Below, piece after piece: positions 6,071-18,327 of a stretch of 20,721 nt of DNA (within the stretch, counting starts at the first letter, position 1; the number at the start of each line of letters is the position of its first letter). A program made the translations under genes and the position numbers. Location of the stretch: positions 1-20,721 of IMG/VR virus record IMGVR_UViG_3300042473_000806. One strand, given 5' to 3'. The notes under the pieces are model-generated. The model did not search any database, was not told the DNA's origin, and worked only from the letters and a program-made list of their open reading frames with translations. The DNA comes from a virus.

Positions 6071-6559
6071 GTGAGCATGGGGCGCAAGGCGATCCCGAAC
6101 GAAATCAAGAAGAAGCGCGGCACGCTTCAGCCTTCAAGGCTGCCTGCGAAGCAGTCCAGCGGGGTGGCTGCACTGGACAATCTGACGCTGCCTGAGGGCC
6201 TTGACCCGATCGGGCAGGGCGTCTGGCTTCGGATCACGTCGGCGTGCGACTGGCTTGCCGAGTCTGATCGAGAAGCGTTGACGATGCTCTGCAAGGATGA
6301 GCAGATGCTGGCGATGCTTACTGCTAGGCTGGAGGTGGACGGCGTGGTGCTCTTCACGGATAAGGGCTACGCCTACGCTCACCCGGCTTGGGGGATGCGC
6401 ACCGCAACGGAGGAGAGAATCTACAAATGGATGAGCTCACTGGGGCTGACGCCAAGCGACCGCGCAAGGCTCGGCATCGCAATGGTGCAGGCAAGGACTC
6501 TGCTCGAAGAGTTTCGGGAGAAGTTCGCAGCACTCCCGACTGGCCCCCGCGCTGGCTGA
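6071..6559 (+). CDS. terS: Terminase small subunit (P27-like)
   Basis: A 162-residue product. The basic start MGRKAIPNEIKKKRGTLQP and the LDPIGQGVWLRIT...LAESDREALTMLCKDEQML block match the P27-type phage terminase small subunit, and ERIYKWMSSLGLTPSDRARLG near the end is typical of that family. It recognises the packaging site and delivers the large subunit. The GTG at 6071 follows GGGGGG by 5 nt; an ATG at 6077 is an alternative that drops two residues. Its last 133 nt overlap the large-terminase gene in another frame, and its C-terminal motif lies partly inside that overlap. Confidence 0.85.
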   Translation: MSMGRKAIPNEIKKKRGTLQPSRLPAKQSSGVAALDNLTLPEGLDPIGQGVWLRITSACDWLAESDREALTMLCKDEQMLAMLTARLEVDGVVLFTDKGYAYAHPAWGMRTATEERIYKWMSSLGLTPSDRARLGIAMVQARTLLEEFREKFAALPTGPRAG

Positions 6560-8046
6560 CGCCTACCGCGCAGGCTGACCTTGACCGCTCGCAGGGCGAT
6601 CAAGTCGCTGACTTCGGCGAAGCACTGGTGCCCATCGCCAAGGACTCTATCGGCGGGCTCTCGGGCGAGCCGATCAACTTCCGCCCATGGCAGCGCAACC
6701 TACTGCGCCATGCCCTAGCACGCAAGGCAGACGGCACCTATACGCACCGCTTCTTCATGGTTGGCGCAGCCCGCAAAAACGGGAAGACGGCGCTGCTCTC
6801 AACCGTGCCGCTGGCGCTCGGACTCTTCGGCGATCAGGGTGGTGAAATCTATTCGGCTGCTGCTGACCGCGATCAGGCGAAGCTCGTGATGGCACACGCG
6901 AAGCGTGCCGTCGAGATGAGCCCCATGCTGGCTGAGCAGATTCGAGTCTTCCGTGACACGCTGGAGTTCAAGCCCACGGGCACCATCTGGCGCGCGTTGT
7001 CGTCTGAGGCGTACACGAAAGAAGGGCTCAGCGCCACGCTAGTGCTGGCGGATGAGTTGGCGGCATGGCCCAACCGCGATCTCTTCGACGTGCTCTCACT
7101 CTCAATGGGCGCCCGTCGCAGCCCGCTCTTCTTGGCGATCACCACGGCTGGGCAGCGCACGGATCAGACGGGCATGGACTCCATCGCCTACACGCTCTAC
7201 CAGTTGGCACGCCGTCGGATCACGGGCGAGCATGACGACCCGACCCTTGGGATGGCGTGGTACGAAGCCGACGAAGACGCCTACACGCACCCTGAGAAGT
7301 GGGCACAAGCCAACCCCGGACTGCTCTCAACGCCGCCACTGCTGAGCCTTGAAGACTTGACGTCAGCGAAGATGCGCACCCCTGAGGCGGAGTTTCGGAC
7401 GAAGCGCCTGAACCAGTTCGCTGCATCTGGGCAGGCGTTCTTGCCTGCTGGGACGTGGGACGCCTGCGCCGATACCAGCCTGCAGCTGCAAGATGGTGAC
7501 CCGCTGGTGCTTGGGTTCGATGGCTCTTTCTCGGCAGATAGCACCGGGGTGATCGGCGTGCGCACCACGGACTCCGCCGTCTTCGTGCTCGGACTTTGGG
7601 AGCGTCCGATCGACGACCTCAGCTGGCGCGTCCCCGTTGAGGAGGTCGAGATGCGGATGGAAGAACTCTGCAAGACGTACGCCGTCAAGGAGATCAACTG
7701 CGACCCGTTCAGGTGGCAGGCAACAATGGAACGCTGGCAGCAGGCGGGCCTTCCCGTCGTTGAGCATCCCCAGAGCCCAGCGCGTATGACGCCAGCCACT
7801 GCCGCCTTCTATGATGCCGTCGTCAACGGGCGGCTGAAGCATGACGGCGATCCACGGCTTACCCGACACGTCGGGAACGCTACGCCCTACCAGACGCGCT
7901 ACGGTGTGCAGGTGCGCAAGGGCAAGGACTCAGGCAAGAAGATTGACTTGTGCGTGGCAGCCATTATGGCGTGGGGGCGTGCTGCTACGCTAGGCGCAAC
8001 ACCTGCGGAGAAGCCGCGCGCATCAGTCGCGTTCATTGAGTTGTAA
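6427..8046 (+). CDS. terL: Terminase large subunit (HK97-like)
   Basis: A 539-residue product. The ATPase part has Walker A AARKNGKT (114-121) and Walker B LVLADE (205-210), with a coupling-like ITTAGQ at 238-243. The nuclease part has LGFDGSFS with D365, EINCDPF with D426, and KKIDLCVAA with D507, fitting a three-acid RNase H-fold nuclease. It powers DNA packaging through the portal and cuts the concatemer. The start at 6427 is chosen because GGAGGAGAG (6409-6417) lies 9 nt upstream; an in-frame ATG at 6388 has no such site. This start gives a basic N-terminal tail (RPRKARHRNG) that is encoded within the small-terminase gene. Confidence 0.93.
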   Translation: MDELTGADAKRPRKARHRNGAGKDSARRVSGEVRSTPDWPPRWLTPTAQADLDRSQGDQVADFGEALVPIAKDSIGGLSGEPINFRPWQRNLLRHALARKADGTYTHRFFMVGAARKNGKTALLSTVPLALGLFGDQGGEIYSAAADRDQAKLVMAHAKRAVEMSPMLAEQIRVFRDTLEFKPTGTIWRALSSEAYTKEGLSATLVLADELAAWPNRDLFDVLSLSMGARRSPLFLAITTAGQRTDQTGMDSIAYTLYQLARRRITGEHDDPTLGMAWYEADEDAYTHPEKWAQANPGLLSTPPLLSLEDLTSAKMRTPEAEFRTKRLNQFAASGQAFLPAGTWDACADTSLQLQDGDPLVLGFDGSFSADSTGVIGVRTTDSAVFVLGLWERPIDDLSWRVPVEEVEMRMEELCKTYAVKEINCDPFRWQATMERWQQAGLPVVEHPQSPARMTPATAAFYDAVVNGRLKHDGDPRLTRHVGNATPYQTRYGVQVRKGKDSGKKIDLCVAAIMAWGRAATLGATPAEKPRASVAFIEL

Positions 8047-8054
8047 GGAGTCAC

Positions 8055-9227
8055 ATGGGAATCGTTGACCGTCTTCTTGGACGTCAGAGCGAAGAGCGAG
8101 CCGTCGGCGGCATGTGGAACGTTGAGGTCGACGCCGCAGGCACCAGTCTCAACGAGAAGAACGCCACCACAATCGGGGCCTTGTACGCCGCCGTGAAACT
8201 CTACGCCGACACCGTTGCAACCATGCCCGTCGGCGTCTTCATCCGTGACCGTGGCGTACGTCGCCCCGTGACACGCCCGCGCTGGCTGGACAATCCAGTG
8301 CCGAACAATCCGAACTACACCCGCTTCGACCTGATGCACCGAACCGTCAGCAGCTTGATGATTGACGGCAACGCTTTCCTCATGGTGCTGCGTGATGGTG
8401 CTGAGATCGTTGAGATCCGCCTGCTTGATCCACGCAAGGTCACGATTCTGCGCGGCGAGAACGGTGCGCCAATCTACCGCGTCAAGACGACAGCGGGCGC
8501 CGTTGACTTGACCGCTGACGACATTGTGCACATCACGCTCTTCGGCGTAGGTGAAGATCTGCGCGGGCTCTCACCAGTTGAGCACCACAAGACGACGCTC
8601 GGACTTGCCAAGGCGACGACAGAATACGCGGCTCAGTTCTTTGCTCAAGGAGCCTCAGTTTCTGGACTGGTGACAGTCCCGGGAGAGCTCACTGCCGATC
8701 AGGCAGAGAGCCTGCGCGCATCGTTCGGACGACGTCACGAAGGGCTGCGCAACATGCACAAAGTGGCAGTGCTCACAGGTGGAGCCGACTTCAAGAGCAT
8801 GGGCTTCAACCCTTCAGACCTTGCCATCGTGGAAAACATGGAGGCAGGCACGCAGGCGATCGCTCGACTCTACGGCGTACCGCTGCATCTTCTACAACTG
8901 CCGGGCGGCAACTCTAGCTTCAATAGCCTTGAGATCATCTCACGAGAGTGGTTGACCTTGGGACTCGGCAGCCTGATTGCGCGGCTAGAAGCAGGCTTCC
9001 AGCGGCTCATCGTTGGCGACACCACCTTCATCAAGTTCAACGTTGACAGCATGCTGCGACCGTTGACGAAGGAGCGATTCGACGCCTACGCCGTGGCACT
9101 CAACAACGGCTTCCTCAGCCTGAACGAAGTGCGCACCCTTGAGGATCGCCCGCCAGTGGGCCCTGATGGTGACGCCTTCCGCCAGCCGCTGAACATCGGC
9201 ACCGTAGGTGAGGAGCCGCAGGCGTGA
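8055..9227 (+). CDS. Portal protein (HK97-like)
   Basis: A 390-residue product matching the HK97-type portal family: a GIVDRLLG start, TTIGALYAAVKLYADTVATMPVGVF in the clip-to-wing region, IDGNAFLMVLRDG, LLDPRKV, DIVHITLFGVGEDLRGLSPVEHHK, and the later SLEIISREWLTLGLGSLIARLE followed by ERFDAYAVALNNGFLSLNEVRTLEDRPPVG, which is a classic family signature. A dodecamer of it forms the DNA gate and connector site at one capsid vertex. TAAGGAG ends 4 nt before the ATG. The end overlaps the protease-fusion gene as GTGA. Secure. Confidence 0.93.
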   Translation: MGIVDRLLGRQSEERAVGGMWNVEVDAAGTSLNEKNATTIGALYAAVKLYADTVATMPVGVFIRDRGVRRPVTRPRWLDNPVPNNPNYTRFDLMHRTVSSLMIDGNAFLMVLRDGAEIVEIRLLDPRKVTILRGENGAPIYRVKTTAGAVDLTADDIVHITLFGVGEDLRGLSPVEHHKTTLGLAKATTEYAAQFFAQGASVSGLVTVPGELTADQAESLRASFGRRHEGLRNMHKVAVLTGGADFKSMGFNPSDLAIVENMEAGTQAIARLYGVPLHLLQLPGGNSSFNSLEIISREWLTLGLGSLIARLEAGFQRLIVGDTTFIKFNVDSMLRPLTKERFDAYAVALNNGFLSLNEVRTLEDRPPVGPDGDAFRQPLNIGTVGEEPQA

Positions 9228-10720
9228 GCTACGTCATCGTCGACCTAGACGGCACGCTCGTTCTTGACAATGAGCAGCCGAATCAGCCACTGATTGACGC
9301 ACTGAACGAGAAGGTCATGAGCGGCGACACGCAGGTCATCATCGTCAGCGCGCGCAAGATCGACCGCCTGACTGAGACACGCGCATGGCTGCAGGAGTAC
9401 GGCGTGGCTGGTGTTGAGGAGATTCACCTGAACGACTTTGAGGGCAGCGCCTTCGCCACTGGGCTTGCGTTCAAGGAATACAAGTACGGACTTCTCAAGG
9501 AGCAATACGGCACAGAGTTGGAGTATGCAATCGACAACGACCCAGACGTGCGCGCCATGGCGCAGGGCTTGGGGATTGAAGCCTACACGCCAGAGCAGTT
9601 CATCACGGACGAAGAGCGCGCCATCGTCAACGTGCCGAACTACGTCGCAGCTGCAGCGAAGGCTGGGCTTGAAGCCTACGAAGGCGGGCTCGGCGGCGAC
9701 GGCTTGCAGCCAGCCACCATCCGAGAAGCGCGCCAACTTGCCGAAGGGCGAGTGGATGATGAGAAGGTCATGCGCATGGCGGCGTGGATTCGCCGACACC
9801 GTGGCGACTGGGAAGGCGTCCCTCAGAACAGCGACCCAGAAGACGAATCCTTCCCCGGCCCGGGAGCCGTTGCCGCCCTACTCTGGGGCGTCAATCCCGT
9901 AGACACAAACGGCGCCGATCGCGTGCTGGCTTGGGCGGATAGTATCAACAACACATCGCAGCTTGAGGAGAACTCAATGGCACGAGAGCACGAAACACGC
10001 GCACTGCCGCTCGGCGACTTCACCGTCACCGAAGGCGAAGACGGACAGAAGACGTTCACGGGATACGCCGCCGTCTTCAACTCCAACTCTGAGGGCCTGC
10101 CCTTCATCGAGCGAATCGCCAGCGGCGCCTTCGCGCGTGCCATCAAGCAGGCGGAGCAGGGGCGCCGCGTCATCAAGTTCTTGCACGGTCACGATGAGAG
10201 CCGCATGCTGGCGACAACCGCGAGCAAGCGCCTGACCCTGACTGAAGACTCCGTCGGGCTCAAGGTTGAGGCTCGCCTTGACCCTGCTGACCCAGACGCC
10301 GCAGCCGTCATCAGCAAGCTGACCAACGAAGCCAAGGCAATGGGGATGTCCTTCGGCTTCACCGTGCCCAAGAACGGGCAGACGTGGCACGAAGACGGCA
10401 GCCGCACCCTGACGGAGATCGGGCTCCTTGAAGTCTCAACGCTCTCGGGGCACACGCCCGCCTACCCGGCAACACTCGGGCTGACCGCCGTGCGCAAGAT
10501 CGCGCCGAACAAGATCGGCGTGGACGGCGACGCTCTCGTTGAGACTCTTGAAGCCGTCAAGGCTGGCAACACCCTTGACGCTGATCAGACGGCGCTGCTC
10601 GACGCAGTGCGCGCCAAGCTAGGCGCAGCACCCGAGCCCGTCATTGAAGCAACTGCCCCGGCTGGCGAGCACCACACGATTGTGGCAGCCCGCCTGAAGT
10701 TGGAGCAGTTGAAGGGATAA
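9224..10720 (+). CDS. HAD phosphatase / middle domain / HK97-type prohead protease fusion
   Basis: A 498-residue continuous frame. Residues 1-125 form a HAD-type phosphatase: DLDGT with D7 and D9, IIVSARK with S42, Lys84/87/92, and AIDNDPDV with D104 and D106; the TETRAWLQEYGV segment recalls polynucleotide 3'-phosphatase domains of the T4 Pnkp type. Residues 140-243 form a middle module (GLGGDGLQPATIREARQLAEG, then AAWIRRHRGDW, then PGAVAALLWGVNP) that I have seen beside phage head proteases. Residues 252-498 are a U35-type protease with GHD H323, MSFGF S376 and LLEVSTLS E403. A strong ribosome site before M252 suggests a second product. The protease cleaves scaffold and capsid during maturation. 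Start GTG at 9224, GTGA overlap. Confidence 0.85.
   Translation: MSYVIVDLDGTLVLDNEQPNQPLIDALNEKVMSGDTQVIIVSARKIDRLTETRAWLQEYGVAGVEEIHLNDFEGSAFATGLAFKEYKYGLLKEQYGTELEYAIDNDPDVRAMAQGLGIEAYTPEQFITDEERAIVNVPNYVAAAAKAGLEAYEGGLGGDGLQPATIREARQLAEGRVDDEKVMRMAAWIRRHRGDWEGVPQNSDPEDESFPGPGAVAALLWGVNPVDTNGADRVLAWADSINNTSQLEENSMAREHETRALPLGDFTVTEGEDGQKTFTGYAAVFNSNSEGLPFIERIASGAFARAIKQAEQGRRVIKFLHGHDESRMLATTASKRLTLTEDSVGLKVEARLDPADPDAAAVISKLTNEAKAMGMSFGFTVPKNGQTWHEDGSRTLTEIGLLEVSTLSGHTPAYPATLGLTAVRKIAPNKIGVDGDALVETLEAVKAGNTLDADQTALLDAVRAKLGAAPEPVIEATAPAGEHHTIVAARLKLEQLKG
9965..9979 (+). promoter_or_regulatory. Internal ribosome site and start for a free protease
   Basis: GAGGAG (9965-9970), a 6-nt spacer and ATG (9977-9979) lie in frame inside the fusion gene, exactly at the domain boundary before the protease. 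The product from here would be 247 residues, the usual size of an HK97-type head protease. The spacing is as good as that of any start in this window. Both a full-length and a short form may be made. Confidence 0.6.
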
Positions 10721-10826: not shown

Positions 10827-11960
10827 ATGGACAGCATCAAGAATCTGGCTGAGAAGCGCGCCGCGCTGCTAACTGATGCTTCGGGCATCGTTGCAGATGC
10901 AGCAGCCAAGGGCGAAGCCCTTTCGGCTGAGGCACAGGCTCGTTTTGACGCCCTTACTTCGGAGGCTTCAGTTGTTGCTTCCGCCATCACTTCAGAGAAG
11001 ATCGCTGCTGAGGCCCGTGCCGCAGCCGACGCTGCTCGCTCGGAGAAGGCAGTTGCCTTCGCCCCGGCGACTGAGTCGACCCGTGACCTGTCTGCTGAGC
11101 TTCGCCGAATCGCCCGAGACGGCGGCACGGTTGAGCTTCGTGACATCACGAAGGCGACCTTCACGCAGGCAGTTGAGCAGGGTGACCGCTTCTGGATCAC
11201 CGCTGGTCAGGTCAACCCGTTCGTTGACCCTGCCGTTGTTTCCGTCATCCAGCTCGAGAAGGGCAACGTTCTTGCTCTTCCACGAACGACCGCTCTCGGC
11301 ACTGCAGCCGCAGTTTCCGAAGGCTCGTCGATCGGTGAGTCGGACGGCACGAACTCGTCCCTCAGCCTGACCCCAGTGAAGTACGCTTCACTCCTTCAGG
11401 TCGGAATCGAGACTGTTCAGGATCAGATGTTCGACGTAGCCTCATGGGCCACGGAGAAGCTGGCTGCAGAGCTAAGCGTCGCGCACGGGGCAGTTGCTGC
11501 TCCTGCCGTTGCTGCCGCTGCAACCGTTGGCGTTCAGGGTGCGGCAGTTGCCCCAACCTACGCGAACCTTGTCAGCCTCATCTATTCGGTGAAGCAGCAG
11601 TATCGTCGCGCAGCGAAGCGCGGCTTCCTTATGAACGACACCACGCTTGGTGCCGTTATGGGCTTGGTTGACGGCGCGAGCCGACCAATCTTCGTGCCGG
11701 GCGATCAGAACCGCCCAGACACGATCCTTGGCTTCCCAGTCTATTCAGCCGCTCTCGTCGACAACGGTGACGAAGCTCTCTCGATCGCTTTCGGCGATCT
11801 TGGGGCCATCTACACTGCCATCGCTGGGGCGCCTGCAATCGAAGCAGACCGTTCATTTGCGTTCGGAACTGGGCTCATCTCGTATCGCGGAATCCTTCGC
11901 GGCGCGACCGGGCTCATTGACCCAAGCGCAGTGAAGACGTTCAAGGGCGCGAACGTCTAA
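10827..11960 (+). CDS. Major capsid protein, HK97 fold, with N-terminal scaffold domain
   Basis: A 377-residue product. Residues 1-75 are Ala/Glu-rich and helical (KNLAEKRAALL, then ALSAEAQARFDALTSEA, then IAAEARAAADAARSEKA), typical of the delta scaffold domain removed by the prohead protease. The rest fits the HK97-type capsid: FWITAGQVNPFVDPAVVSVIQLEKG, KYASLLQVGIETVQDQ in the long-helix region, FLMNDTTLGAVMGLVDGASRPIF, TILGFPVYSAALVDNG, and IAFGDLGAIY near the end. The ATG at 10827 is preferred to 10812 because AAGGAG (10815-10820) lies 6 nt upstream. It is flanked by the hairpin-bearing gaps, suggesting it is expressed as a distinct message segment. Confidence 0.93.
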   Translation: MDSIKNLAEKRAALLTDASGIVADAAAKGEALSAEAQARFDALTSEASVVASAITSEKIAAEARAAADAARSEKAVAFAPATESTRDLSAELRRIARDGGTVELRDITKATFTQAVEQGDRFWITAGQVNPFVDPAVVSVIQLEKGNVLALPRTTALGTAAAVSEGSSIGESDGTNSSLSLTPVKYASLLQVGIETVQDQMFDVASWATEKLAAELSVAHGAVAAPAVAAAATVGVQGAAVAPTYANLVSLIYSVKQQYRRAAKRGFLMNDTTLGAVMGLVDGASRPIFVPGDQNRPDTILGFPVYSAALVDNGDEALSIAFGDLGAIYTAIAGAPAIEADRSFAFGTGLISYRGILRGATGLIDPSAVKTFKGANV

Positions 11961-15276: not shown

Positions 15277-15778
15277 GGGCAACGAGAAGGTCAGAATCTT
15301 CGTCACGCCTGAGTCGCTCAAGGCGACGGACGACCTGCGCCTTGGCTTCTTGGAAGCCAGCAACCCCCGCAAGTTCAAGGCTATGTTGCAGCTCGCCACG
15401 CTGAACGCTGCTCGCACCATGGTGAAGCCAGTCAAGGCGAAGGCACCCGTGCGCACTGGACGCCTGCGTGGCGCAGTGGCTGCCCGCAAGGGTAAGAACG
15501 ACCGCCCGTCGTCCGTCGTCGGAGTCAAGGCAGGCAAGAGCCGGGGCGACATGCAAGGCGCGTGGTACCGCTGGTTTGTGGTCAGTGGCACATCTGGCAC
15601 CAGAAACACAAAGCGGCAGGGTAGAGTCAACATCCAGCGAGTGCCAGCGCGTGACTTCGTCAAGCAGGCAGTCACAGAGCCAAGCGTTCAGGCGCGGGCC
15701 ATTGAAGTATTGAACAACACAATCCAAGCCTTCTTGGATGGCACCATCAAATACAGGGGGCGAAGGGGTAGACGATGA
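15266..15778 (+). CDS. HK97 gp10-like protein, unusual position
   Basis: A 170-residue basic product. The diagnostic stretch is NAARTMVKPVKAKAPVRTGRLRGAVAARKG at about 47-76, the standard HK97 gp10-like core (helix, then KAPVRTGRLR). Then SSVVGVKAGK, AWYRWFVVSGTSGT and a VPARDFVKQAV segment, all usual for the family. Such proteins take part in tail completion at the head end. Here it lies after the chaperones instead of before the tube gene. The GTG at 15266 follows AAGGA and overlaps the chaperone end by 11 nt. The family call is good; the role in this position is open. Confidence 0.78.
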   Translation: MVAKGNEKVRIFVTPESLKATDDLRLGFLEASNPRKFKAMLQLATLNAARTMVKPVKAKAPVRTGRLRGAVAARKGKNDRPSSVVGVKAGKSRGDMQGAWYRWFVVSGTSGTRNTKRQGRVNIQRVPARDFVKQAVTEPSVQARAIEVLNNTIQAFLDGTIKYRGRRGRR

Positions 15779-16902
15779 ACAAGGGCACCATGAACCTAGT
15801 CATCAAGGCGATCGACAACGCTACGCCAACCCTGCGCACCATCGGCAAGGGCTTCGGAACTCTCAAGAACACCAGCATCGCCGCGTTCAAGGGCATCGCT
15901 GCAGCGTCAGCCCTAGTCGCCACTGCTCTCATTGGCTTCGGGGTCGCAGCCGTCAAGGCTGCACTAGACGACGAACGCTCAACCCTAAAACTGAACGCAG
16001 CCCTGAAGGCGCGTGGCATCCTCACTGACGGGCTCAAGACTGCAATCGACAGGCAGATTGAAAGCATGGCTGCACTCGGCATCGCTGATGACGAAGTACG
16101 CGCAGGCATTGAAGTCTCCAGCCGCTACTTCAGCAAGCAGGCAGACATCCTTGCCGTCAACGCCGCAGCTGCAGACATCGCAGCCGTCACTGGTGGCGAC
16201 CTTGCGGAGATCATCACCACCATCGGCAAGGGTGCTCGGGGTTCAACCCGTGGACTCATGGCGCTGGGCATCACCGTCAAGAAGGGCGCTGGCTTGCAGG
16301 AGATCCTCACCGCAACGACGGAGAAGTACGGCGGCATCGCTGCCGAGATCGCCAACTCAACGAGTGGACGGCTTGCCGCTGGGCAGGTTCGATTCAATGA
16401 AGCCATTGAAAAGTTCGGCTACAAGCTCATGCCAATCTTCCAAGATGCACTTGACTGGATCACGAACAAAGGGCTGCCAGCGTTTGAGGCTGCTCTCGGC
16501 GCGCTTGCGCCGATCCTCCTTGACGCCTACGAGAAGCAGGTCATCCCCCTCATCAAGTCAGTCGACGATCTTGCAAAGTCGTTCGGAGCAACTGGCGGCG
16601 CCATTGAAGTATTCGCCACCGCGACACAGATCGCACTCTTCCCACTGCTCAAGTTGATGGAAGCCATGAAAATCATCATTGACGGGATCGCTGCGGGGAT
16701 CCGATTCATCACGGGAGCACCCGATCCCAACAACGTACTTCCGACGGGCGCCTTCACGAGCTACGCTGGCGGCCCGTCTTACCCCGGCGCGCCAACATCC
16801 AGCACGCCACCGCTCACGGTCGTCATCGGCAACAAGCCAGTGGACGGCGTAGTGCGTGACTCCATGGGCAGGATTCTGGGCACCACCCCCGGGCCACGCT
16901 AA
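15775..16902 (+). CDS. Tape measure protein, short (375 aa)
   Basis: The product has an N-terminal helix with NATPTLRTIGKGFGTLK, a hydrophobic stretch at about 36-62 (AASALVATALIGFGVAAV), long Ala-rich helices with GDLAEIITTIGKGARGSTRGLMALGITVKKG, a family-typical GYKLMPIFQDALDWI segment, a second hydrophobic helix region near FPLLKLMEAMKIIIDGIAAGI and a Pro/Ser-rich tail. These features, with its place after the chaperones, identify a tape measure. Using about 1.5 angstrom per residue, the tail would be only near 55 nm. Start ATGA overlap at 15775; an ATG at 15790 is a weaker alternative. Confidence 0.85.
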   Translation: MNKGTMNLVIKAIDNATPTLRTIGKGFGTLKNTSIAAFKGIAAASALVATALIGFGVAAVKAALDDERSTLKLNAALKARGILTDGLKTAIDRQIESMAALGIADDEVRAGIEVSSRYFSKQADILAVNAAAADIAAVTGGDLAEIITTIGKGARGSTRGLMALGITVKKGAGLQEILTATTEKYGGIAAEIANSTSGRLAAGQVRFNEAIEKFGYKLMPIFQDALDWITNKGLPAFEAALGALAPILLDAYEKQVIPLIKSVDDLAKSFGATGGAIEVFATATQIALFPLLKLMEAMKIIIDGIAAGIRFITGAPDPNNVLPTGAFTSYAGGPSYPGAPTSSTPPLTVVIGNKPVDGVVRDSMGRILGTTPGPR

Positions 16903-16905
16903 GTC

Positions 16906-18327
16906 ATGGCGACGCACCCCTTCGCCATCATCGTTGACGGCGTCAACAGCGGCGCCAACATCCTTGACGACTACAGCACCGCGAGCCCAGAGACGCCATG
17001 GGTTGACCCTGAGACGGTCACGCTCACGCAAGACGCCAACGGTGAGGGCGGCTCTCTCCAGTTCGAAGTGGTGCAGGTCAAGACTCCGGGCGGCGGGCCG
17101 TGGTGGAAGTCAGGCGCAGTCAACGACAACGCGCGCGTGCGCTTTCAGGTTAGCGGCACCACCACCTTCTTGGGATACATCGTGCAGATTGACGCGCAGC
17201 TCGCCGAGAACGGACTGGGCACCCGCGCGCTGGTCATGGCGTCTGCAGCCTCATCGTTCTTGGATAAGATCATCGTCTACAAGGGGCGCCAACTGACGGG
17301 CACGAAGTCGGGATACACCAGCAACTTCAAGATCGGCGTAAGTGGTGGATCAGATCAGGCAGCCGTCACCGCGCTGGTGAGCAAGGCAGACGCTGCCATG
17401 GCGTTCAGCACGGGCACCAGCGGGCGCACCGCCAACCGCCTCATCGTCAACACGAACACCACGCCAACCTACACGGGCACGAGCGTCGTCGTCGGGCAAC
17501 TCAACATGGTGCCCGGCACGCTGCGCTCATGCCTTGACACCATCAAGGAGGCAGCCGAAGCCATTGACGGGGAAGAACGCCGCTACTGGGTGGCGCCGAG
17601 CGGCACGATCAACTATGCCCGACTGGGCAGCGCCGTGCCGACCTACGCCAACGCCCCCTTCAAGGTCGTCACCACGGCGACCTACAGCCCCTACGGCTCT
17701 AGCTCAGCAGCGGCAACGCTGCAGGTGCGCAACCTTAGCGTCAGCCTTGACCATGACGTCATCGTCAAGAAGGCACGCTTCGTCTTCAACACGAACGCTG
17801 ATGACTGGGACGCCCAGATCAGCGGCGGCGCCTACACGGTGAAAGATCCGTATGGTCGAGTCTACGATCAGGCAGCGCCGAACGGTGCAGGCATGACGAC
17901 GCGCAACGGCCCACGCCCAGAGACGATCATCGGCGTGACGCCGCAGCCTGCGAAGGCAGCGTCGCCAACCTACTGGACGGCAAAGATCACGGACTATGGC
18001 AAGAAGTACTTTGGGACGGACACCTACCCCAACCGCGCCGCGCCGCAGCGCAGCATCACCTTCAGCGTGCGCGGGGCTGATACGACGAACAACCCGTACG
18101 GCTTCGCCAACGGATACCGCCAGACGGCGCCGAGCACCTTCGTGCTGCAGAGTGGCTGGGAGGCTGGGCAGTACGTCAGCATCGCGGCGTCGTCGCTCGA
18201 CCTCAGCGGGCTATACCGCATTGAGTCGCTCACCATGTCCTTCGAGCCGGGCTCTATGATTCGCCAGTTCGACTTGACGTGCGAGCGGGTACCGCGCAAT
18301 CCGTTGAAGAAGTTCTTGCAGGGGTAA
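16906..18327 (+). CDS. Minor tail protein, tail hub candidate
   Basis: A 473-residue product, beta-rich. It starts with FAIIVDGVNSGANILDDYS, then a block with SLQFEVVQVK...ARVRFQVSGTTTFLGYIVQIDAQ as in hub or distal-tail proteins, a helix segment LRSCLDTIKEAAEAIDGEERRYWVAPSGTINYARLG typical of siphovirus tail-hub proteins, and a C-terminal block ending IRQFDLTCERVPRNPLKKFLQG. It follows the tape measure with only a 3-nt gap and has no clear ribosome site, so it may depend on coupling. It should form the tail-tip hub. The family is probable from layout. Confidence 0.7.
   Translation: MATHPFAIIVDGVNSGANILDDYSTASPETPWVDPETVTLTQDANGEGGSLQFEVVQVKTPGGGPWWKSGAVNDNARVRFQVSGTTTFLGYIVQIDAQLAENGLGTRALVMASAASSFLDKIIVYKGRQLTGTKSGYTSNFKIGVSGGSDQAAVTALVSKADAAMAFSTGTSGRTANRLIVNTNTTPTYTGTSVVVGQLNMVPGTLRSCLDTIKEAAEAIDGEERRYWVAPSGTINYARLGSAVPTYANAPFKVVTTATYSPYGSSSAAATLQVRNLSVSLDHDVIVKKARFVFNTNADDWDAQISGGAYTVKDPYGRVYDQAAPNGAGMTTRNGPRPETIIGVTPQPAKAASPTYWTAKITDYGKKYFGTDTYPNRAAPQRSITFSVRGADTTNNPYGFANGYRQTAPSTFVLQSGWEAGQYVSIAASSLDLSGLYRIESLTMSFEPGSMIRQFDLTCERVPRNPLKKFLQG

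Follow-up and report, generated by a model that had tools for sequence, protein, structure and literature searches.

The window, that is, the whole stretch of DNA that was analysed, is the 20.7-kb IMG/VR virus record IMGVR_UViG_3300042473_000806. Its head genes stand in the usual order: terminase (6388-8046), portal (8055-9227), a fusion gene (9224-10720), and then the HK97-type major capsid protein (MCP). The listed MCP open reading frame (ORF) begins at ATG 10812, while AAGGAG precedes ATG 10827, which makes the latter the likelier start; with either start, the protease gene sits between the portal and MCP genes. Upstream of the head genes (295-2998) are encoded an Erf-like annealing protein, a DNA methyltransferase, and a deoxynucleoside monophosphate kinase. 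Among the tail-region genes (15775-18327) are two ORFs, of 375 and 473 amino acids, for which no PHROG match was found at 0.001.

The fusion gene is a 498-codon frame that GTG 9224 opens and a stop codon at 10718-10720 closes, and it encodes a HAD phosphatase, a helical module referred to as MID, and a prohead protease, one after the other (Table 1). An earlier, sequence-only reading of the window had described a single continuous frame with a HAD domain, a middle module, and a protease, and both the frame and its coordinates are correct. GAGGAG stands 8 bases upstream of GTG 9224, and the start overlaps the portal stop codon. The same kind of overlap, as GTGA or TTGA, is seen in 126 of 158 distinct relatives.

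Table 1. Features of the fusion gene and of the neighbouring capsid gene, in window coordinates
Feature	Position	Strand	Evidence
Start region of the long product	9210..9227	+	GAGGAG 9210-9215, GTG 9224-9226, overlapping portal stop TGA 9225-9227
Long product, HAD-MID-protease fusion, 498 aa	9224..10720 (incl. stop)	+	Open frame; one ORF in >200 relatives
HAD phosphatase domain (activity predicted), residues 1-130	9224..9613	+	D7/D9, S42, K84/K87, D104/D106; profiles, Foldseek
MID, all-helical, residues ~137-245, PHROG 2859	9632..9958	+	Profile match; model
Internal Shine-Dalgarno-like site, GAGGAG	9965..9970	+	Sequence; pairing energy; control windows
Internal start, ATG, codon 252	9977..9979	+	ATG, GTG, or TTG in relatives
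Short product, putative free prohead protease, 247 aa	9977..10717	+	PF04586, 2e-28 with this part alone
Candidate self-cleavage site, E257-T-R259	9992..10000	+	Protease border; E and R invariant
S78 prohead protease core, residues 270-417	10031..10474	+	H323, S376, E403; profiles; Foldseek
Candidate cleavage site, E-L-R in MCP	11133..11141	+	End of coiled-coil propeptide

The C-terminal part scored 98.1 bits against PF04586 (E = 8e-28; curated cut-off, 21) and 88.3 bits against TIGR01543 (5e-25; curated cut-off, 59), and its H323, S376, and E403 are invariant across 31 aligned relatives. The protease is as intact as had been claimed. Foldseek matched this part to T4 gp21 (5jbl; E = 6.5e-5). 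The AlphaFold2 model of the full protein has a mean pLDDT of 80 and a pTM of 0.35, so the relative placement of the domains in it is unreliable.

What about the N-terminal domain? In profile searches, the sequence support for it is weaker than for the protease part. Against PF08282 (cut-off, 20.9) it scored 21.5 bits as an isolated domain and 18.6 bits within the full protein, and PHROG 415, "polynucleotide kinase," matched it at 7.6e-12. All of the HAD motifs I to IV (DxDGT, S/T, K, and the acidic pair) are present, in agreement with the earlier description of an intact phosphatase, and they are conserved: DxDGT occurs in 148 of 148 relatives, as the selection of that set required, S-A/G-R also occurs in 148 of 148, and in the aligned relatives K84, K87, and D104 are invariant, with N105 and D106 nearly so. 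The single sequence had no match in the PDB; a profile was needed, and it found Pnkp1 of the RNA-repair complex (4xrp; 1.2e-5) and T4 Pnkp. The top Foldseek match is the T4 Pnkp 3'-phosphatase (5uj0; E = 1.6e-5; TM of 0.59 on the target). Pnkp 3'-phosphatases are therefore the nearest solved relatives by both routes, and the likeness to a polynucleotide 3'-phosphatase that had been proposed stands. With PF25109, the family of PNKP-type 3'-phosphatases, the domain scored 17.2 bits, below the gathering cut-off of 27.6, and for this reason it is not filed as a PNKP member. Taken together, the profiles and the model identify it as a HAD phosphatase most resembling the T4 Pnkp type, with a predicted activity. 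Among cultured phages, the HAD domain of the window had no match, and a distant HAD relative had only weak ones, to polynucleotide kinases of Mycobacterium phages.

MID, between these two domains, comprises about 110 residues and belongs to no Pfam family. Modelled by itself, it forms a confident helical domain (pLDDT of 92, pTM of 0.85) that had no match in the PDB, either by sequence or by fold. Head proteases of four kinds have it N-terminally: S78, S78-capsid, S78_2/XkdF, and ClpP. Outside the window's family (loci L396, L397, L398, L399, and L400), MID is found in the protease-capsid polyproteins of Roseobacter phage CRP-811 and Synechococcus phage S-CBS3, in the XkdF-type protease of Limnohabitans phage DC31, and in a coiled-coil protein encoded between the portal and capsid genes of Vibrio phages. 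Jumbo phage PaBG has it alone, as a free 110-amino-acid protein annotated as DNA-binding and encoded outside the head gene cluster.

How widely is the fusion shared? Two viral-contig scans, one per half of the protein, gave a first set of 142 loci. HAD, MID, and protease lie in a single ORF at 112 of these, six more carry HAD and protease with no recognisable MID, and at none of the 142 are HAD and protease in separate ORFs. After further scans the tally was 252 HAD-MID-protease, 19 HAD-protease, and 98 MID-protease ORFs, some contigs being counted twice. Throughout, the reading frame is preserved despite varied linker lengths and a MID that comes and goes. The sequence-only reading had looked to related phages for the same fusion, and viral contigs from IMG/VR provided it in more than 200 ORFs. 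Every relative found keeps it except for one doubtful contig (L254:1971-3418, the same contig as L365), in which HAD-MID and protease are in different, overlapping frames and the protease is missing its first strand; this split is probably a deletion or an assembly error. A separate HAD gene in relatives and a join made in assembly, the two objections raised in advance, were both looked for with no credible case found, and the number of relatives with the same fusion rules out an assembly or cloning join. The phages that carry the fusion gene make up a large, uncultured group from water. It is also already in the databases, as is plain from the full-length likeness of UniProt A0A6J5R419 (501 amino acids, 56% identity), a "Prohead protease" of an uncultured Caudovirales phage whose name is silent on the phosphatase and on the internal start. 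A search of 84,980 species genomes for host prophages returned one match, in a Microbacteriaceae metagenome-assembled genome (MAG), with a Cys-rich extension.

The internal start is the second unusual feature of the gene. Its GAGGAG is separated by six bases from ATG 9977, which falls where the model predicts disorder (pLDDT below 50 at residues 246 to 258 and 260 to 264). The positions given earlier were exact, and the border at which they were said to lie is predicted to be disordered. In the first set, the homologous residue switches among Met, Val, and Leu, yet its codon is always ATG, GTG, or TTG (115 of 115 ORFs). Val at the border is GTG in 30 of 30 cases (background codon use, about 34%) and Leu is TTG in 9 of 9 (about 16%); when 40 M/V/L alignment columns were compared, the border column alone had 100% start codons. 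The Shine-Dalgarno (SD)-like stretch varies but persists as GAGGAG, AAGGAG, GAAGAGAGG, or AGGGAG, and in two of these four variants Arg is encoded by the rare AGG (4% of Arg codons). Pairing with the 16S tail has a mean energy of -8.0 kcal/mol, compared with -2.6 for other in-frame ATG, GTG, and TTG codons; for GAGGAG 9965 the median in its group is -8.3 kcal/mol, beating 98% of other in-frame starts. A start with an SD of -6 kcal/mol or lower is found at the border in 159 of 183 distinct ORFs (87%), against 15.5% of equal-sized control windows, these being counts of related sequences (14 clusters at 80% identity) and not of independent events. At -7 kcal/mol, the figures are 84% of border windows and 6.2% of controls. 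Even inside single 80%-identity clusters, ATG, GTG, and TTG interchange.

In the distant clade of Pontimonas phage phiPsal1, Leu at the corresponding place is TTG in 58 of 58 cases and Val is GTG in 3 of 3, with one exception; some members of this clade have a weaker SD. Ranked by synonymous conservation, the 5-codon windows around the internal start come no higher than the top 2% in two groups, and in another group, at rank 22 of 481, they are unexceptional. As proof on its own, the synonymous-site scan is only moderate, since lower scores are found at the portal overlap and in other stretches. As a whole, these comparisons support an internal start that has been preserved by evolution. Is it preserved everywhere? 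Three groups (L152-155; L159, L163, L164, L167, and L180; and L214, L215, L221, and L253) keep the HAD-protease fusion, and in them a clear start with an SD at the border was not seen; the linker there is rich in Pro, Ala, and Glu. L253 has AAGGA ahead of a Met codon, perhaps a usable weak start. Unless such a start is used, the protease of these groups can come only from the fused protein. The fused form, then, can suffice in a few clades, and elsewhere both starts are kept.

The module at the N terminus is exchanged among related phages. Some sister phages have nearly the same protease but, where HAD would be, a pair of Cys-rich modules that are weakly HiPIP-like (below the cut-off), a form that PHROG 80 already takes in at its N terminus; in other sister phages a DUF5824 or Tudor-like insertion occupies the HAD slot (loci with Cys-rich, DUF5824, or Tudor-like modules: L001, L060-L080, L143, L174, and L186). 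Since these modules are unrelated to HAD, no single enzymatic role is required for head assembly. The sequence-only reading had also suggested a phosphatase that works on DNA ends while the genome is packaged, a proposal that is not supported in that form: a slot that non-phosphatase modules fill in sister phages cannot be dedicated to end processing. The protease can be exchanged as well. At six loci (L388-L394 except L393; for example, L394:4115-5893, on which the ClpP family search was done), HAD-MID is joined to a ClpP-type (PF00574) head maturation protease, the fold of which is unrelated to S78, and the border there has an ATG and no SD. That one passenger is attached to head proteases of unrelated types suggests selection for attachment to a head protease as such.

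How might the fusion, the domain identities with their catalytic motifs, the internal start, and the exchange of N-terminal modules, each supported by the comparisons above, fit together? The best explanation as a whole, to which we give a probability of about one-half, is that the gene yields both a free protease and a protease that carries an N-terminal passenger into the prohead. For ribosomes coming from the portal gene, the overlapping GTG 9224 would be the start of HAD-MID-protease; the second ribosome site would give the bare 247-residue protease. Fused and free forms from one gene had been put forward before, and with the internal start preserved this is still the best reading. The two forms would co-assemble in the prohead via their common protease part; as the passenger of the long one, phosphatase and MID would thereby enter the head, at a dose that the two start sites would set. 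The protease would mature the capsid by removing the propeptide of the capsid protein, and it would probably trim itself near E257-x-R259, which is located 6 to 8 residues into the short form. Self-trimming would free the passenger from the protease and from the 8-residue tail of the short form. The substrate of the freed phosphatase would bear a phosphate and may be met inside the head or, likelier, in the next host cell after ejection. The best single guess at this substrate is a nucleic-acid 3'-phosphate, and any action on DNA ends is conjectural.

The cleavage step is predicted, and the only lead to it is the E-x-R sites in both proteins; that the protease might cut off the passenger had been suggested in the sequence-only reading. 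In the MCP, they are E103 and R105 (numbered from ATG 10827), conserved at 88% and 94%, respectively. The two E-x-R motifs, one bordering the protease and the other the capsid propeptide, are alike and may be a common cleavage motif, although the likeness is short and could reflect structure instead. In T4, the prohead protease works inside the core, where tagged proteins, foreign ones too, are taken in and processed, and gp21 activates by removing nine residues from its own N terminus (PMC9958956). Propeptides generally exit the head once cleaved (PMC10052503), so loss or degradation could also be the fate of the passenger after its release. MID and HAD could also act in the cytoplasm, prior to assembly. 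A broader version, in which head proteases are general carriers, with MID handling entry or passengers, enzymes plugging in ahead of it, the second start tuning the amount, and the passenger being released and ejected, is offered tentatively, as an idea with the odds somewhat against it.

Several other explanations have to be weighed against a two-product gene with a passenger. One is that two genes simply share a frame: HAD-MID would be functional upstream, the internal start would make nearly all of the working protease, and the long form would be unimportant read-through. The strength of the internal SD fits this (mean of -8.0, against -6.3 for the HAD start), as does a short form in which the canonical S78 protease is complete. 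Linker lengths have changed and MID has been lost or exchanged, though, with no stop or frame change in more than 200 sequences bar the one doubtful contig, clades without the internal start retain the fusion, and the same HAD-MID is also fused to a ClpP-type protease. We consider this explanation improbable, if still the strongest of the rivals. Slightly less probable is that the N-terminal region is an assembly or dosage device, in which MID and the preceding module limit entry of the protease or hold it inactive and the phosphatase is secondary. MID is indeed common to four protease types, and the modules before it vary. However, MID is missing in 18 HAD-protease ORFs, some of which share an 80%-identity cluster with MID-bearing ORFs, and it stands alone in PaBG, off the head gene cluster; moreover, a mere spacer would have no need of the catalytic motifs of HAD, yet they are conserved.

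Could the phosphatase instead serve RNA repair or counter-defence in the infected cell, for example, on 3'-phosphates left by host nucleases, with its link to the protease gene reflecting late expression only? The top PDB profile matches, Pnkp1 of the RNA-repair complex and T4 Pnkp, point that way, but the kinase part is absent from the fusion protein, and the gene would be a late one, too late for repair, which has to act early, unless the protein is ejected. We regard this role as quite unlikely. That the internal start is a coincidental linker Met is very improbable: the window by itself shows just one ATG after a purine-rich stretch, but family-wide conservation of codon and SD excludes chance, which the uniqueness of the start-codon column, the SD controls, and the phiPsal1-type clade rule out.

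If the preferred reading of two products and a carried passenger is true, its significance would be severalfold. (i) The head protease would be a vehicle that loads enzymes into the capsid, with inbuilt dose control and a release step. (ii) The odd N-terminal extensions on many head proteases would be explained. (iii) MID, widespread and unnamed, would gain a testable role. (iv) Gene callers would be shown to hide second products of head genes. (v) A natural design for loading capsids with passenger proteins would be at hand. A description of this fusion or of its internal start was not found in searches of the open-licence literature.

Which known systems does the gene resemble? Its phosphatase shares with the 3'-phosphatase domain of T4 polynucleotide kinase/phosphatase both the fold, as the top structural match, and the DxDGT, Ser, Lys, and Asp motifs; it differs in being only about 20% identical, in lacking a kinase domain, and in falling under the Pfam PNKP cut-off. 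Passengers that enter heads and are processed or delivered are known from the T4 internal proteins, which have a capsid targeting sequence, and from polyvalent proteins (PMC5512222). In the window, the carrier would be the protease itself. The CRP-811 and S-CBS3 polyproteins, like the fusion gene, have MID first and then an S78 protease, in a gene after the portal, but they run on into the major capsid protein and HAD is absent. The prohead protease of Pontimonas phage phiPsal1 (MG835450, AUV61415.1) likewise combines an N-terminal extension, MID, and S78 in one gene, with TTG at the border and GGAG upstream; it has Cys-rich modules in place of HAD, and the shared part is 40% identical.

Lambda C/Nu3 and similar systems have a prohead protease gene in which an in-frame internal start gives a shorter, C-terminal product. 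The likeness lies in a conserved in-frame start and ribosome site inside a head-protease gene. The difference is that the short product there is a scaffold without the protease, whereas the short product of the window would be the protease, and it is the long product that bears extra N-terminal domains, so that the window gene mirrors C/Nu3. The protease-scaffold fusion of lambda has been noted previously (PMC5513430). Nested in-frame products of a head-protease gene are thus already known; new are the reversed order and the conserved extra enzyme domain.
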